Positions 4,656 through 41,553 of a stretch of DNA of 45,919 nt are shown in pieces; the first letter of the stretch is position 1, and the number at the start of each line of letters is the position of its first letter. The notes below the pieces were generated by a model. It saw nothing but the letters and a program-made list of their open reading frames with translations. It did no database searches and was not told the origin of the DNA. The DNA comes from a virus, in IMG/VR virus record IMGVR_UViG_3300017613_001278, positions 1 to 45,919 of that record, one strand, 5' to 3'. The position numbers were made by a program, and so were the translations under genes.

Positions 4656-5103
4656 TTATTTTATTTATAACTTCTTGAAACGCATCCCTTTTGCCGTGGT
4701 CTGCGCTTAGTGTTTGTTCTTCTAACCACTCTAATAGTGCCGCCTCTCGTTCTTCTTTCAAGCTGTTGAAGTATTTAGCATCTTTCTCGCTTAATGTTGC
4801 TTTTGATAGTAAATACTGATAGCTACTAATCTTTATTAGCTTTACTTTTACATCTGCTGGAATATTAGCCAACAACAATGCAAGACGCTTTTGTATTTCC
4901 TTCGTATCATCCTCTAACTCCTTACCCTCTACGCAATGCTTATGCAAATCCTTGTACAGTCCGCTTGACGTTACCGCCCATTTAGGCGTATCTTTGTCTA
5001 TTTGAAAGAACAGAAAACCCACTCTAGTTTTTAGCTCCTGCATTTCCGCTTTGATAGCTTCGTACCGCTCTATGGCTTCGGACTTATTCAGCTTTTCCTT
5101 CAT
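4645..5103 (-). CDS. Hypothetical coiled-coil protein
   Basis: 152 aa, almost entirely charged and helical with heptad-like Leu spacing (KLNKSEAIERYEAIKAEMQELK; EEREAALLEWLEEQ). It overlaps both neighbours (20 nt with the 57-aa gene, 11 nt with the 59-aa gene). The size and charge are like small packaging or assembly factors, but nothing diagnostic is visible. Confidence 0.6.
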   Translation of the reverse strand: MKEKLNKSEAIERYEAIKAEMQELKTRVGFLFFQIDKDTPKWAVTSSGLYKDLHKHCVEGKELEDDTKEIQKRLALLLANIPADVKVKLIKISSYQYLLSKATLSEKDAKYFNSLKEEREAALLEWLEEQTLSADHGKRDAFQEVINKINER

Positions 5104-11341: not shown

Positions 11342-11364
11342 AATTGTTTTTGGTTAGGGGGTTA
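11339..11364 (-). repeat. Shared leader repeat, copy 1
   Basis: 26 nt from the stop of the 182-aa gene through the ATG of the GIY-YIG gene; on the minus strand it includes CCCCCTAACC and ends AACAATTATG. It differs at one base from 12291-12316, which occupies the same place between the next gene pair. It probably acts as a translation-initiation or intergenic junction cassette. Confidence 0.75.
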
Positions 11365-11910
11365 AAGTGATTCTAGCAATTCAAAAACTAACTCCATGTC
11401 TGGATTGCGGAAAGCATAATTAAGGTAGTCCGTTGGCTTGTTGTAATGGTAGTGATTTAATTTTATATGTTCCTTTATTGACTTCTCGGTAAGAAAAGCA
11501 TTCTTGTATTCGTGTTCTTTAGTCACCCAAATCTCTCTGTACCCAATTTCTTCAAGCTTACTGGCGTAGTCGTTAGAATCAACTAATTGCGTAGCTAATT
11601 CTAATGCTTTTAGCGCAATATGCTCGTCTGAATCATCCTCTAACTCAATATGTTTAGACATTTCATCTTCATTCTCATAGAAATAACCCGATAGAAACTC
11701 TATTATTTCCTTGTCCTCCCTTAATTCACCTTCCCCATTTTCGTTAATATAAATACATTCACCGTTGCCCTCTGTGCTTATTACCTCTTTTTCGCATTGT
11801 ATTTGATAAAAATAAGGCTTTGCTGTTGCCCTGTTGTCTTGCGTTTTGATTTCGTTGGATAGGTCTTTTAGTCTTCTGTATAGGTCGTCTGATATTGATA
11901 TTGTTTTCAT
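11362..11910 (-). CDS. Conserved phage hypothetical protein
   Basis: 182 aa. N terminus MKTISISDDLYRRLKDLS is helical; then QDNRATAKPYFYQIQ, a pattern I associate with a phage protein family of unknown function, followed by an acidic region. It begins downstream of the structured leader RNA at 11928-12080. The first ~30 codons are duplicated, base for base, at 13278-13489. Function unknown. Confidence 0.7.
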   Translation of the reverse strand: MKTISISDDLYRRLKDLSNEIKTQDNRATAKPYFYQIQCEKEVISTEGNGECIYINENGEGELREDKEIIEFLSGYFYENEDEMSKHIELEDDSDEHIALKALELATQLVDSNDYASKLEEIGYREIWVTKEHEYKNAFLTEKSIKEHIKLNHYHYNKPTDYLNYAFRNPDMELVFELLESL

Positions 11911-11927: not shown

Positions 11928-12080
11928 TAGAAAAAGCCTCAAAGGGTATGAATAGTTTAGGAACGTGCGGACAGATGCACATATACTATTCCCCTTTGAG
12001 GCTTTCACCAACAAATAAGATTTGTTTATTCTGTCCTATGTCAGCATTGTAGTGAGAGTTCCTAATTCTAACTACTGCCG
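11928..12080 (-). ncRNA. Structured leader RNA / attenuator 1
   Basis: Between the promoter at 12087-12117 and the ATG at 11910. Minus-strand RNA: hairpin AACAAAT/ATTTGTT (12010-12026); then a long hairpin with outer stem of 14 bp (11933-11946 with 11992-12005), 3-nt bulge, inner stem GAATAGT/ACTATTC of 7 bp, apical stem GTGC/GCAC (11965-11968, 11977-11980). The 8-nt apical loop carries 7 nt (11969-11975) complementary to 12030-12036. The outer stem runs into TTTTT, so it can terminate. Either a ~150-nt small RNA or a 5' attenuator of the 182-aa gene. 5' end is estimated. Confidence 0.6.
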
Positions 12081-12086
12081 TTACCC

Positions 12087-12117
12087 CAAATATACGCAAC
12101 TTCTCGCAGCTATGCAA
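12087..12117 (-). promoter_or_regulatory. Promoter of leader RNA 1
   Basis: Minus strand CTTGCA at -33, 20 nt after TTG, then a perfect TATATTTG (TAnnTTTG). Transcription would start about 12080. The 12-nt upstream segment (TTGGCATAAAC) resembles the paired TTGCAA boxes at 17.7 kb. Confidence 0.7.
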
Positions 12118-13549: not shown

Positions 13550-15754
13550 CTAGAATAGGGTTTTTTGTCGTTCCTCAATAATAGCATCTCTATGGTTTTT
13601 TTTATTCAAGTTAAAATAACTCTCTTTTAACTCAATAGATACACTCTTTCTCTTCATCTTCAAAGCAGTATAACCTTCTGACCCTATGCCCCCAAATGGA
13701 CTAAAAACAGTATCTCCCTCGTTGCTATACAAGTGCAAAATGCGCTCAATAGTATCTAATTGTAAAGGGCAAATGTGTTTTTCATCATTCCCATCTCTAG
13801 CACTTCTATATTGCAACGTTCTTCTATAGTCTACATCCATCCAAACTGGAGATGCGTATTTTTGCCACAAATCTACTGGCAAATAGTCGGGCTTGGTAAA
13901 ATCATCCGCTTGATGTGTGATAGGCGTTTCGTTATCGCCTTCGTTTCTAAAGAACAAAACATAGTCAGGTATTCCAACTCTAGACATTACGCTATCCTTT
14001 TTTATAGTCTTATGGAGCAAACCAAGAGCCTTAGTTCTTTGCATTTCTGTTACTGGGTTCTTCCATATCGTAACCCGTGAATGATAAATAAAGCCCTGTT
14101 CTATAAACCAATTTATAAGCATTCCGCTAAAGTCTCTTAACCCGATAAACCCTTCTTTTCCTTTTTGAATAGGCAAATCCATACAATGAACCGCACATAT
14201 TCTACCAGCCTTTAAAACTCTTTTGATTTGTGGAATCAAGTATTTAAAGTGATGCTCAAATTCCTTGTAATTCTTTACATTCCCCATATCCGCAGCCTTA
14301 TCGCTATAAACATACAGCTCTGCAAAAGGAGGACTAAAAACGCATACATCAACACTATTAGCTGGTAGACTTTTAGATGCTTCTACGCAATCCCCGTTAA
14401 TTATGTGGTATCTATCGTTTTTTACTTCTTTTGTATCAACTACTGCCCCTTTTGAAGACTTGTAATTATGCTCTGCGCTGTATTTTGCCATTTCTCCAAT
14501 CATTTCTTTATGTTTTCCTTCTTTTTCTAAAATAGTTCTTCTTACGTTCGTTTGTGATTCTGGAATAAGTATGTGAACTTTTACCTTTTTAGTTTGTCCG
14601 AACCTATAACAACGCCTAACAGCTTGATAAAAAGCCTCAAATTTGAAGTCGTACGAACAAAAAACCATATTGCAGCAGTTTTGGTAATTCATCCCGAAAC
14701 TAGCGATTGATGTTTTTGTTACTAGTACTCTAAACTCATTATCTGCAAACCCTAATAACCTATCAGCCTTTGTTTGTGGTTTGTCACTACCTTGTACATT
14801 AACAGCATCATCAATGCTTCTTGATAGGAGGTCGGTTTCTTTGTTCTGTAAGCCCCAAACTATCCATTGTTCATTGTTTGAATTAACTAGTTCTGTCGCC
14901 AATTTTACCCTATCAGCCATTGAACGCCTTAAATCTTTATTCAAATCAGTTGCAGATACCGCAGCAGTAACAAATAAAGTATTAGTATTATTCTCTACGG
15001 GTATAATGTGTTCGATATACTCTATTTCTGGCAGGTCGTACCCTTCCATGTTATACCCTAAAGTACTAGGCTTATCTATAGATATAGACCATGTACATAC
15101 AAACTTCCAAAAGTCATCTTTTGCATGCTTTCTTAGTCTCCATTTAGAAGTCTGCCCACCATCATGAACAAAATACATAGCTAACATTTCTAAGTAACTC
15201 ATAGCCCCTAAAAATTGGGCATGTTGTCCTAGTTCCATGTGGTCGTTTGGTGATGGTGTCGCTGTACATGCGAGTCTATACGGGGTTTGCTGGAATGACT
15301 CTATGATAAGTCTGCTTAGTTTTCCATCCCTTCCTTTTAAGATACTAGATTCGTCTAATACAACACCCCCAAAGATAGAAGCATCTATATTCTTTAACTG
15401 GTCGTAATTTGTTATGTATATCCCATCCAAAGAATCATCGTTTCCGTTTTCGTATCTTGATATATTTATGCCAAATTTGACCCCTTCATTAATTGTTTGT
15501 TGAACTACTGCCAACGGGGATAATATCAAAACAGGTTTTTTTGTCTCAAATGCAACTTGCTCCGACCATGCTAAGAATTGAATAGTTTTACCTAGTCCGC
15601 AATCTTCAAACAATGCAAACCTACCTTTTTTGCATGCTAATTTTACTACATGCTTTTGATATTCGTATAAGTTTTGATTTAAGTCTTTAGCCTCGAATCC
15701 GCAAGCGATAAAACTCTTTTCTTTTGTCTTTAAAAACTCCTGATAATTATTCAT
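13550..15754 (-). CDS. SNF2-type helicase fused to beta-class N4/N6 DNA methyltransferase
   Basis: 734 aa. The N-terminal SF2/SNF2 ATPase has Walker A DCGLGKT (51-57), motif II LDESS (133-137), motif III TATPSPND (164-171), and C-lobe motif VI QAVRRCYRFGQ (377-387). The C-terminal methyltransferase has catalytic FSPPF (473-477, a variant of D/N/SPPY) before SAM motif FSPFGGIGSE (684-693), the beta-class order. No nuclease domain is seen. It could modify phage DNA processively or block restriction, as proposed for helicase/methyltransferase proteins such as P1 DarB; this is analogy only. It is preceded by leader RNA 2. Confidence 0.9.
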   Translation of the reverse strand: MNNYQEFLKTKEKSFIACGFEAKDLNQNLYEYQKHVVKLACKKGRFALFEDCGLGKTIQFLAWSEQVAFETKKPVLILSPLAVVQQTINEGVKFGINISRYENGNDDSLDGIYITNYDQLKNIDASIFGGVVLDESSILKGRDGKLSRLIIESFQQTPYRLACTATPSPNDHMELGQHAQFLGAMSYLEMLAMYFVHDGGQTSKWRLRKHAKDDFWKFVCTWSISIDKPSTLGYNMEGYDLPEIEYIEHIIPVENNTNTLFVTAAVSATDLNKDLRRSMADRVKLATELVNSNNEQWIVWGLQNKETDLLSRSIDDAVNVQGSDKPQTKADRLLGFADNEFRVLVTKTSIASFGMNYQNCCNMVFCSYDFKFEAFYQAVRRCYRFGQTKKVKVHILIPESQTNVRRTILEKEGKHKEMIGEMAKYSAEHNYKSSKGAVVDTKEVKNDRYHIINGDCVEASKSLPANSVDVCVFSPPFAELYVYSDKAADMGNVKNYKEFEHHFKYLIPQIKRVLKAGRICAVHCMDLPIQKGKEGFIGLRDFSGMLINWFIEQGFIYHSRVTIWKNPVTEMQRTKALGLLHKTIKKDSVMSRVGIPDYVLFFRNEGDNETPITHQADDFTKPDYLPVDLWQKYASPVWMDVDYRRTLQYRSARDGNDEKHICPLQLDTIERILHLYSNEGDTVFSPFGGIGSEGYTALKMKRKSVSIELKESYFNLNKKNHRDAIIEERQKTLF

Positions 15755-15769
15755 TGTTCGATGTGTTAA

Positions 15770-15911
15770 ATAAAAAAGCCCGTTTCAAAAGTAATTAATT
15801 GGCTTGGTGAGCATTGTCTATACACATCGAAAAGACAGCAATTAATTACCCTTGAAACGGGCTATTAAATATTTTATTGATGTGTTATTTGCTTAGAGTA
15901 CCACCTCATAG
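15770..15911 (-). ncRNA. Structured leader RNA / attenuator 2
   Basis: Minus-strand RNA between the promoter at 15917-15947 and the ATG at 15754. Outer stem 12 bp (15777-15788 with 15852-15863), 3x3 internal loop, inner stem 10 bp TAATTAATTG/CAATTAATTA (15792-15801, 15839-15848), apical stem TGTCT/AGACA (15815-15819, 15833-15837). The 13-nt apical loop has 7 nt (15822-15828) complementary to 15879-15885, and 9 nt (15822-15830) complementary to 15758-15766 just before the start codon. The outer stem is followed by TTTTTTATTT. Same design as leader 1 with unrelated sequence. Confidence 0.6.
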
Positions 15912-15916
15912 CGTTT

Positions 15917-15947
15917 CAAAGATAATATAATTATTGAAATAAACTAA
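15917..15947 (-). promoter_or_regulatory. Promoter of leader RNA 2
   Basis: Minus strand perfect TATCTTTG, preceded after 20 nt by CTTA at -33 (weak match to TTTG). The start of transcription is estimated at about 15911. Confidence 0.55.
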
Positions 15948-32577: not shown

Positions 32578-34376
32578 TCTATAAACGTTACTTTTAATTT
32601 ATCATCATAAACGCTTTCTATCTCATAACTTATTGTTGCGTGACCTTCTTCATACGACCAATCAAGCTCTAATATCTTAACCTTGTTCCCTTCTGCGTCC
32701 TCAACTACATTATTATTTGATAAAGATACGAAATTTTCAAAACAAAAAGGTATTTGCTTATCCTTTACAATTAGTCGCTGTGCGTTCTTGTCCTTTATTG
32801 TTACGAAACTTTTGAGAAAATGGTACTTTTCCCATAGGTTTTTTGCACTTAATATTTCCCTTTGGTCTAAAGCTAGACTATTTCCAGCCATAACTACCAT
32901 CTTAGGACGTGATGTAAAGTGACTAGACAAGTGCATTGCTCCAACTCTTGCAGAGAATTGCCCAGCAAAAGAGTTAGGTTGTCCTAATTGACCGCTTAAA
33001 AAGTCCGCAGCTTGTAGGAATATCTTTAAAGCTTCCTCTATTACGGTTAGTTTATCTTTGCGAACCGCCATAGAAAGGGGAACATTTATTGTTTCTAAGC
33101 CTTTTATATTTACTAGTTCGGGGTTGGTTACGGTCTTTGGGGATGTGATAACTTGATAAGCTCTACCTTGGCTATTGTCCAAAGTGTTCATATCTTGCTG
33201 GTCGGTATCCCAAAGAATCTCAAAGTTCGCCTTTATTGCGCTTGTATTTACTGTGTATGGGTTTGTTAGGTCGGTTTGGTCGGTTAATGTGTCGGGCACA
33301 ACATAACTAGAATTGTTATCCCAATAGTCCTCACGTTCAAACTCAAATACACCATCTCTAATTCTGTAGTCTGCATTAAACACACTACTATAAACCCGTA
33401 TTGCGTCGCCTAAATTGTCTATACCATCCTCTTTAGTTGGTACTCCTGTTTCTACCCAAGACCCTGTATCTGCGCCCGTTGGAGGACTGCCGCCTTTATG
33501 CCCCTTCTTTGGAATTACTACCCATTTATTTGCGCTTGTGTCTATCGCATCTAGTAGGTCACTTTTAAGGGTATAGCCTAAGTAGTCGCACCCTTTTTGG
33601 AACAATTGGCGTACTGTCATGCCTAGATGGTAGCGTTTCTTAGGGGCTAATTGGTCAATTATCTGTTCGGTTAGTTTTACTAGTGCTACTATTATTCCAA
33701 CAGTATAGGCGACTGTGACTGCTAAATTTATCACGGCTGCTATAATATCCCCCAAATCCCAAGCGGTAACAGCGCCAGCACCTAAGCCTACGGATTGCCC
33801 GACTACAGGAGTAACCCCGTTTATCAAGTCGGTTGTTTGCTCTGCTATGGATTGGATAGACTCAACAAGTTCTTTTGTGAGCATAAATGTACTGATAGAA
33901 AGCAAAAGCAATTCTACACCATCTGGAATGTAATTAATAACATAGGGTACTCCGCTATAGTCGCTTGATGTAATTTTACCAGCACCGTTGTAGCTATCAC
34001 TAGCAAGGTATCTATAAGAAAAGCTTTCTGCATTCTCTTTCATCCAGTCCTCACCTTGTAGCTTTTTGAGGGCAATTGCTATGATGTTAGGGGCTATTAT
34101 CGTGGGTTCGTCTGTTGCATCTAAATAGCCGTTATAAGTTAACACAGGGTTTAGGGGTTCGCCCACCTCTATGTCATAAGGGATGCCCTCAAAATAGCCT
34201 TTTGTGTTTAGTATTTCTTGTATATCAGTAGCAGACTGCCCCTTAAATAGCAAGTTATCTAGTTTTATGGTAGCGTCTATTTTACCCTTTTCCCAACTAG
34301 CTACAACTTTGAATTGTTGCCAGTTTTCGGGTTCTTCGACTTGTTGACCGTTTAAATAGTGTCTAGAATTTGCCAT
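32574..34376 (-). CDS. Tail protein following the tape measure, distal-tail/hub candidate
   Basis: 600 aa. N-terminal beta region (~1-120) recalls distal-tail-type proteins; two hydrophobic stretches (~154-175 and ~209-240, IIAAVINLAVTVAYTVGIIV) could be membrane-interacting, useful in DNA injection. Follows the tape measure, as hub or distal-tail proteins do. Domain identity not proven. Confidence 0.6.
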   Translation of the reverse strand: MANSRHYLNGQQVEEPENWQQFKVVASWEKGKIDATIKLDNLLFKGQSATDIQEILNTKGYFEGIPYDIEVGEPLNPVLTYNGYLDATDEPTIIAPNIIAIALKKLQGEDWMKENAESFSYRYLASDSYNGAGKITSSDYSGVPYVINYIPDGVELLLLSISTFMLTKELVESIQSIAEQTTDLINGVTPVVGQSVGLGAGAVTAWDLGDIIAAVINLAVTVAYTVGIIVALVKLTEQIIDQLAPKKRYHLGMTVRQLFQKGCDYLGYTLKSDLLDAIDTSANKWVVIPKKGHKGGSPPTGADTGSWVETGVPTKEDGIDNLGDAIRVYSSVFNADYRIRDGVFEFEREDYWDNNSSYVVPDTLTDQTDLTNPYTVNTSAIKANFEILWDTDQQDMNTLDNSQGRAYQVITSPKTVTNPELVNIKGLETINVPLSMAVRKDKLTVIEEALKIFLQAADFLSGQLGQPNSFAGQFSARVGAMHLSSHFTSRPKMVVMAGNSLALDQREILSAKNLWEKYHFLKSFVTIKDKNAQRLIVKDKQIPFCFENFVSLSNNNVVEDAEGNKVKILELDWSYEEGHATISYEIESVYDDKLKVTFIE

Positions 34377-40212: not shown

Positions 40213-40399
40213 TTTCTACCGCCTTTTTAATTCTGTCAATAAAAGATTGCATTTCTGCTTTATGCTCTTTAGTTTCATCATAAAGCACTTGTTTACTATC
40301 GCTTATAATAGAACTAATAGAAGAAATTATATCATACTTTTCTTGTATCTCTTGCTCAATCTTTGTGTTTTTCGGTTTAAGTGGGGTTGCTTGTATCAT
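40169..40399 (-). CDS. Small helical protein of the connector region
   Basis: 76 aa, charged, helical (TKIEQEIQEKYDIISSISSI). Overlaps the next gene by 44 nt and the previous by 4 nt. Function unknown. Confidence 0.45.
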   Translation of the reverse strand: MIQATPLKPKNTKIEQEIQEKYDIISSISSIISDSKQVLYDETKEHKAEMQSFIDRIKKAVENGSSGTTNKKDKRT

Positions 40400-41553
40400 C
40401 CCGCTGCCCCGTATTTAGTCTTAGGAAGTTTAGCACTTGGCAAACAATCACCTCTAACATTGCCCATGTCCAAATTTAAAGCTTCTATGGCTTTTGATAG
40501 CTTTTGATTTAGTGGGGGGTTGTCAGTATCTGTCGTTCCTTCCAGGTCTCTAATTATCATTATTTTTACACTTTCCTCAATGTTGTTTAGCTGTGTGCTA
40601 GACTTCATCATTTCGAGTACCTTCATGGCAACTGCCAAACCTATTACATTGGCAAAGTTTCTCCTGTTGTCCTTCCAAAATTGAGTAAGGTCGCATCCAA
40701 TTGTGATGTTAAAATTAAAACCCCAATTATTCGTATTGGTTTGAATAACTATCGAAGGGTTGAACATTGTACCCTTTGCAGGAAGTGACGCACTAGGTAC
40801 GTAAAATCCCTTCATCACTAAGCGGTTTCTAATGCTTTTATACTTAACATCATTCGCCTTTGCTGTAGCTCCACATTGATTACAATACCCATTAAGCCAG
40901 TTCATAGCAGAATACTGGACAGCTTGCGAACTCTGTAAGGCTAAATCATCCTGATAGTATCCGATATACCAAGTTCCTCCAGAAATAACACCATTATCAA
41001 AATCAAGTATCTGCCTATGTTCTTCCCATCCGAAAGAGTACGTTGCAGTAGATGAATATTGGAATATCGTAACAGGCGTGGTTTTGCTACTATGATAAAC
41101 GTAGATATCTAAGTCAGTTACCGCAGCGGTTAAATACAGCCCAATTCGGTTAATTATAGCCCGTATGCCTGTCTCTTGCGACACTTCAAACATTACCCCA
41201 CAAAAACGGCTTTCGTTCGTCATTGTAGCAGTTTTGCGACCGACATTATAAACTACATTGTTAGTTGCTATTGTTTTTCCAAAACGCCCCAATTGCTTCT
41301 CAGTAACTATTCGGTTTAGTACTTGTGTAATTCCATCAGTTTCTACATCTGCCAAGAACGTTGTAAGCGGTCTTTCATCTAGCAAAGAAGTGATATAGTC
41401 TAACCGTACCAGCTCATTAAAGCCTTGGTAATATTGACCAGATAGAGGCGTATCAGTATAAGGCGCACCAAGTGCAGGAATTTCGGCTGCGTTCCAAAAA
41501 TCCTTCCAACTGACTACCGTTTTTAAAATATCTACAATGCTATTATCAAACAT
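40396..41553 (-). CDS. Structural protein following the capsid gene, connector candidate
   Basis: 385 aa. Helical N-terminal part (~1-100), a beta-sandwich-like middle (GLYLTAAVTDLDIYVYHSS; SGGTWYIGYYQDDLA), one CNQCG pair, then a helical C terminus. In gene order it occupies the place of head-tail connectors. The middle looks like an inserted adhesin-type beta domain. Family not recognised. Confidence 0.5.
   Translation of the reverse strand: MFDNSIVDILKTVVSWKDFWNAAEIPALGAPYTDTPLSGQYYQGFNELVRLDYITSLLDERPLTTFLADVETDGITQVLNRIVTEKQLGRFGKTIATNNVVYNVGRKTATMTNESRFCGVMFEVSQETGIRAIINRIGLYLTAAVTDLDIYVYHSSKTTPVTIFQYSSTATYSFGWEEHRQILDFDNGVISGGTWYIGYYQDDLALQSSQAVQYSAMNWLNGYCNQCGATAKANDVKYKSIRNRLVMKGFYVPSASLPAKGTMFNPSIVIQTNTNNWGFNFNITIGCDLTQFWKDNRRNFANVIGLAVAMKVLEMMKSSTQLNNIEESVKIMIIRDLEGTTDTDNPPLNQKLSKAIEALNLDMGNVRGDCLPSAKLPKTKYGAAG

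Follow-up and report, generated by a model that had tools for sequence, protein, structure and literature searches.

A putative divergent member of a proposed family of loop-kissing, promoter-proximal attenuators in the leader of a phage helicase-methyltransferase operon

What kind of RNA keeps its design while changing its letters? The question is raised by two leaders on the minus strand of a virus record of 45,919 nucleotides (IMG/VR IMGVR_UViG_3300017613_001278; this whole stretch is called the window below), which is related to the FCV-1 group of Flavobacterium columnare phages (70.7% identity in the helicase). A preliminary description, made from the letters alone, had proposed that these leaders, RNA 1 and RNA 2, share an architecture without sharing sequence. 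We have examined RNA 2, which precedes a helicase-methyltransferase gene, on its own, against its one close relative, and against a large set of phage leaders of similar layout.

The stems, apical stem, 7-nt pairing and poly-U that had been ascribed to RNA 2 were all located on the minus strand. Upstream of them lies the sequence TATCTTTG (15917–15924), which matches the Bacteroidota sigma-A -7 box TAnnTTTG. From the position of this box in Flavobacterium psychrophilum, -12 to -5 (PMC9723704), transcription is predicted to start at about 15912, the first base of a small 5'-terminal hairpin (GCUAUGAGGUGGUACUCUAAGC, 15891–15912) that is drawn in the fold and is nearly unchanged in the close relative. 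The 5' pairing segment ACACATC (15879–15885) comes next, followed by a terminator-like hairpin (15774–15866) with an asymmetric internal loop on its 3' side. The outer and inner stems of this hairpin pair 15774–15801 with 15839–15866 (28 nt, 89% complementary), and the fold of RNA 2 has a z-score of -5.2, with 0 of 200 shuffles equally stable. An apical stem, TGTCT/AGACA (15833–15837 with 15815–15819), is absent from the minimum-free-energy fold and appears once the pairing segment is held unpaired; it closes a loop of 13 nt (15820–15832) containing GATGTGT (15822–15828), which can form seven Watson–Crick pairs with the 5' segment. The hairpin ends in a U-tract (15770–15779), and 19 nt past the hairpin, at 15754, stands the ATG of the downstream gene (13550–15754), encoding a 734-aa fusion of an SNF2-type helicase with an N6/N4 DNA methyltransferase (Pfam PF01555, PF00176 and PF00271; phrog_16). 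Just before this start codon a third copy of the pairing segment, ACACATCGA (15758–15766), is complementary to the loop over nine Watson–Crick pairs, as had been claimed. The duplex of the loop with this 3' copy is the stronger of the two (-11.8 kcal/mol vs -7.5 with the 5' segment), so that competition between both partners for the loop is plausible. We also observed that the loop of the 5'-terminal hairpin, GUGGUA, and the 3' side of the internal loop, CUCACCAAG (15800–15812), are both conserved in the close relative and could pair over 4–5 nt (UGGU/ACCA), a possible second long-range contact.

Taken singly, the pairing in RNA 2 is only moderately beyond chance. The 7-nt match between leader and loop was reached in 601 of 20,000 dinucleotide shuffles (3%), which makes RNA 2 no more than suggestive on its own; the 9-nt 3' match was reached in 256 of 20,000 (1.3%). 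RNA 1 has a -7 box TATATTTG (12087–12094, minus strand), a 5' pairing segment GGACAGA (12030–12036) and a terminator-like hairpin with the loop ATCTGTCC (11933–12005), upstream of a gene at 11362–11910 for which just two weak relatives were found; its leader match was reached in 317 of 20,000 dinucleotide shuffles (1.6%).

Searches with exact RNA 2 patterns returned either nothing or just the known relative, contig L001, and BLAST with RNA 2 against isolated phages gave nothing above chance. The helicase of L001 is 89% identical to that of the window, and its leader aligns with RNA 2 along the entire length. In the stem, two base pairs have undergone double compensatory change, one from U-A to A-U and the other from A-U to G-C, and there are one-sided changes as well; the 5' segment and the loop core are identical in both leaders, and the 3' copy is at least partly conserved (ACACATCA). 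The promoter of L001 (about 4820–4830) reads TAAATTGC, which fits not TAnnTTTG but TAnnTTGY (SM5), an alternative sigma box of F. psychrophilum (PMC9723704); transcription of this leader may depend on a different sigma factor in each of the two phages.

The argument for a class comes from leaders collected irrespective of their loops. We scanned IMG/VR with the pattern TATATTTG-N30-60-AAAGCC-N28-58-GGCTTTTT, in which loops are unconstrained, and obtained 74 distinct elements with promoter and hairpin. A Watson–Crick match of at least 7 nt between loop and leader was present in 50 of the 74, where 3.2 were expected from permuting leaders between elements, and one of at least 8 nt in 21 (1.0 expected). 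Elements found independently of this pattern also showed an excess (14 of 46 with at least 7 nt, 2.2 expected); in most of these enrichment tests the elements had been chosen for their U-tracts. Unlike a single 7-nt match, then, the loop/leader match as a class feature is beyond chance, and the earlier proposal of an RNA class selected for shared design rather than for sequence is borne out by these counts.

The same proposal was open to the objection that such matches might be frequent near terminators in general. Here the outcome depended on the promoter: hairpins with an upstream promoter had a large excess (20 with a match vs 5.3 expected), terminators lacking one had none at 7 nt or more (29 vs 29.6), and all terminator-like hairpins pooled had almost none. 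Simple descriptor scans in which neither a promoter nor an ORF was required were drowned in noise from coding regions and were set aside. With the same pattern, cellular genomes of all phyla gave no clear excess (10 of 117 among the matches listed, 5.8 expected), and 397 Flavobacteriaceae genomes yielded six matches, one with a 7-nt loop/leader pairing; a host origin of the class was rejected for the clade tested. The class thus recurs in dozens of phage contigs, with letters that differ each time and without enrichment in the cellular genomes searched.

Covariation within one family is consistent with the same pairing. Sixteen pattern matches that share a common backbone were aligned, having been chosen regardless of pairing. 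The kissing helix is 99.1% paired in this alignment, both partners change in three of its seven pairs, and its covariation score was reached by 0 of 500 shuffles, whereas control structures slid along the alignment pair in 27–44% of cells and have covariation near zero. Two-sided changes of the kiss are also found in the small families L112/L156, L087/L105 and L037/L039. One element, L141:5944–6048, has a single kiss mismatch (GTCGAAG vs CTACGAC), and its close relative L097 pairs perfectly.

The layout of the class is compact. In 61 curated elements the 5' segment mostly begins 9–15 nt past the -7 box (about +6 to +12), the terminator hairpin follows 21–28 nt past the segment, and the ATG mostly lies 13–18 nt past the hairpin, leaving no space for another promoter. 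In 47 of 81 leaders a small hairpin presents the 5' segment in its loop (6.7 expected with shuffled flanks), and this loop is often 7 nt long and fully complementary to a 7-nt terminator-hairpin loop; the pairing would therefore usually be a loop–loop kiss within one RNA. Kiss segments are richer in GC than the remaining leader (56% vs 30%), and the median kiss duplex has an energy of -9.4 kcal/mol. The terminator hairpin often carries an internal loop, (G/U)AGUA/GAA(A/C) or GGA(U/C)/UGAA, the first of which resembles a bulged-G (loop E) motif, and several members have a perfect stem with no such motif. A U-run of at least five is present in 60 of the 61 curated elements, a set itself chosen with a T-tract; a search that dropped this requirement yielded 87 elements and 10 decoys, and U-runs were present in nearly all of the elements. 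The promoter, the 5' kissing hairpin, the internal-loop motifs, the ATG spacing of about 15 nt and the restriction to phages had all been overlooked in the preliminary description.

Its suggestion that the loop pairs before the start codon did not carry over to the class. A 3' copy of at least 7 nt was present in two of 60 scored elements (0.15 expected), and as a class feature it was rejected, being confined to RNA 2, L001 and L077. In L077 the third copy (CATCCAC) overlaps the start codon, and this is the sole other independent case like RNA 2.

How does RNA 2 compare with the typical element? It has the class core, namely a Bacteroidota promoter (15924–15917) upstream of the 5' segment, a terminator loop with at least 6–7 Watson–Crick pairs to the leader (ACACATC/GATGTGT), a U-tract, and an ATG shortly after the hairpin. 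Like RNA 1, it has no hairpin around the 5' segment, the feature of the majority, and in place of the AGUA/GAA or GGAU/UGAA internal loop it has a 1 x 13 nt asymmetric loop. Judged by these parts, RNA 2 is a divergent class member, and RNA 1 and RNA 2 are both atypical.

The elements nearly always precede an ORF. Where the downstream family is recognisable, it is mainly a helicase-methyltransferase, a methyltransferase, a replication initiation or primosomal protein, or an HNH endonuclease; the frequency of helicases is partly by design, because the starting loci were fetched with the window helicase. Full-length relatives of this helicase in L021, L032, L090 and L150, and shorter ones in L082 and L095, have equivalent leaders, those of the full-length relatives with unrelated pairing sequences; L082, L090, L095 and L150 came from the unbiased scan and not from the helicase fetch. 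The kisses found at orthologous helicase genes are ACACATC, CTTGTAC, TGGTGG, GTTGCAT and GTTGCAG. Where one contig carries two elements, their pairing sequences differ in six of six cases. Among cultured phages, an element is present in the FCV-1 group (65 records) and in Croceibacter phage P2559S. The element of the FCV-1 group lies near 40,393–40,455 of KY979235 and that of P2559S near 33,947. BLAST of isolated phages with the typical elements of L150 and L119 found none. Since most elements are on unassigned metagenomic viral contigs, the assignment to a host phylum rests on the promoter type and these two cultured phage groups.

Other leaders were encountered alongside the class. Near position 12011 of L180 (about 12,011 in FCV-1), a promoter-proximal terminator-like hairpin before a 420-aa gene has no kissing match, so the kiss is not in every such leader of these phages. 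Two contigs, L012 and L014, have a different structured leader upstream of the helicase gene, which ends at the start codon and consists of a long GC-rich outer stem (GGGGCUGCAA.../...UUGCAGCCCC) around a shared motif, AAGGCAAUUAAGCCG, without a U-tract. On another viral contig, L122:10391–10423 scores above the gathering threshold for the DUF805b cis-regulatory RNA (RF02914).

These features suggest a model, to which we give about even credence: phages of Bacteroidota would possess a hitherto undescribed family of leaders that act in cis, close to the promoter, as attenuators, and RNA 2, the leader of the helicase-methyltransferase operon, would be one of its divergent members. After initiation by the host sigma-A polymerase, the first tens of nucleotides of the leader to emerge would include a short pairing segment, which most members present in the loop of a 5' hairpin. 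The loop of the following terminator hairpin would then kiss this segment; as both are transcribed before the 3' arm of the hairpin, the kiss could form first. The hairpin and U-tract ahead of the start codon could stop transcription before the first gene, and the level of read-through would depend on whether the kiss forms and probably also on a contact that a protein or the polymerase makes with the hairpin. In RNA 2 the third copy beside the start codon would be a second partner for the loop and could add translational repression. A conditional terminator is the simplest reading of a strong hairpin and U-run placed between promoter and first gene with no space for a second promoter. The sequences point to this model through the promoter, pairing, hairpin, U-tract, pre-gene position, enrichment, and covariation in one family; pairing in vivo, termination, the direction of the effect and any effector are what we infer for the class. 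Counting against the model, the kiss could apparently coexist with the completed hairpin without steric conflict, and RNA 2 has no 5' kissing hairpin, no recurrent internal loop and a weak cis pairing (p ~0.03). Ribosome-mediated (trp-type) attenuation was rejected as a class feature, a closed ATG ORF of at least five codons being found in just 26 of 90 leaders.

The strongest rival is that the element protects the mRNA and presents its start site. A kissed 5' end and a stable hairpin would shield the message from 5'-end-dependent RNases, and the hairpin, ending about 15 nt before the AUG, would offer the ribosome an unstructured U/A-rich initiation site, the U-tract being a feature of initiation and no terminator. 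The closeness of the 5' segment to the predicted 5' end (about +6 to +12), the clustering of hairpin-to-ATG distances at 13–18 nt and the ORF that nearly always follows would all suit such a role. However, a GC-rich stem followed by 5–9 U is the signature of an intrinsic terminator and needless for protection, and the segments of RNA 2 (near +28) and RNA 1 (near +50) lie away from the 5' end; we hold this reading to be unlikely. The next rival, which we think quite improbable, is a trans-acting antisense or immunity RNA of the P1/P7 c4 or P4 CI type: once terminated, the leader would act as a small RNA, and its loop would pair with other copies of the transcript, at their 5' segment or, for RNA 2, at their start region. 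A kiss that varies on a constant backbone is what a specificity code would look like, the hairpins of RNA 2 and L077 are flanked on either side by a copy, an arrangement reminiscent of the complementary sites in P4, and loops of the P1/P7 c4 RNA act on ant mRNA near its start (PMC12197685). Yet the best partner of the loop is usually in cis, a few tens of nucleotides away, flanking 3' copies are rare, the downstream genes of known family serve mostly replication and DNA modification, and the differing pairings on all six two-element contigs speak against shared trans control.

A leader that senses a ligand or protein would place the specificity elsewhere, in an AGUA/GAA or GGAU/UGAA internal loop that binds an effector, either as a terminator-embedded riboswitch or as an operator for a ribosomal or phage protein. 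These motifs do recur among otherwise unrelated stems, and a terminator-embedded riboswitch with a conserved terminator loop has a precedent (HMP-PP, PMC6478431). However, a metabolite pocket would need more conserved nucleotides than are seen, the motif is missing from RNA 2 and from several members whose stem is perfect, and a freely chosen loop sequence argues against a metabolite aptamer, which leaves sensing with a low probability. An ordinary terminator with a chance loop/leader match would be in keeping with the shuffles of RNA 2 alone (p ~0.03), but for the class it is refuted by the statistics, and with the conservation in L001 taken into account we regard it as very improbable for RNA 2. 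The attenuator model is the one that we prefer.

Is such an RNA already known? The elements had not been recognised as a riboswitch or leader class, and this stands: Rfam gave no match on them (window, E<=1; 13 loci with typical elements, gathering thresholds), and no description of such a class was found in the open-access literature searched. The pairing that defines the class is a pseudoknot, which covariance models are unable to represent. The HMP-PP (thiS) riboswitch (PMC6478431) likewise has its control element inside the terminator hairpin of a gene leader and a possible pseudoknot with the terminator region, but it has conserved loop nucleotides and a metabolite, whereas here the loop is free provided that it matches the 5' segment. 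The present class, moreover, comes from viral contigs and shows no enrichment in the cellular genomes searched. Fully pairing 7-nt loops, and loop pairing coupled to a terminator, are familiar from the pT181 and pIP501 plasmid antisense attenuators and from ColE1 RNAI/RNAII, in which loop–loop kissing takes place between different RNAs; here both loops are in one leader. P4 CI RNA, which governs phage immunity and has complementary sites flanking its hairpin, resembles RNA 2 in this flanking arrangement, and it shares with P1/P7 c4 RNA phage hairpin loops complementary to phage leader sites. Both are trans-acting regulators of immunity, released by processing or made as separate RNAs, whereas here the partner lies in cis within about 20–30 nt and two elements on one contig differ. 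HK022 put, too, is a leader RNA in an early phage transcript and changes termination, but the terminators on which it acts lie further downstream, and it contains none itself.

We tentatively suggest, at somewhat less than even probability, that Bacteroidota phages use a general, sequence-free device in which the 5' end of a transcript kisses, loop to loop and in cis, the terminator hairpin before the first gene, with a 7-nt code peculiar to each leader; such a device would attenuate early operons for replication and DNA modification in a programmable way. Because pairing and not sequence is conserved, such a class would escape homology and Rfam searches. Since its pairing code appears to be freely exchangeable, it could also serve as an orthogonal control part in Bacteroidota genetics. 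If correct, this would be a widespread regulatory RNA class in the phages of a major bacterial phylum, and it raises the questions of whether a loop–loop kiss can set intrinsic termination in cis and of how Bacteroidota phages time their early genes.
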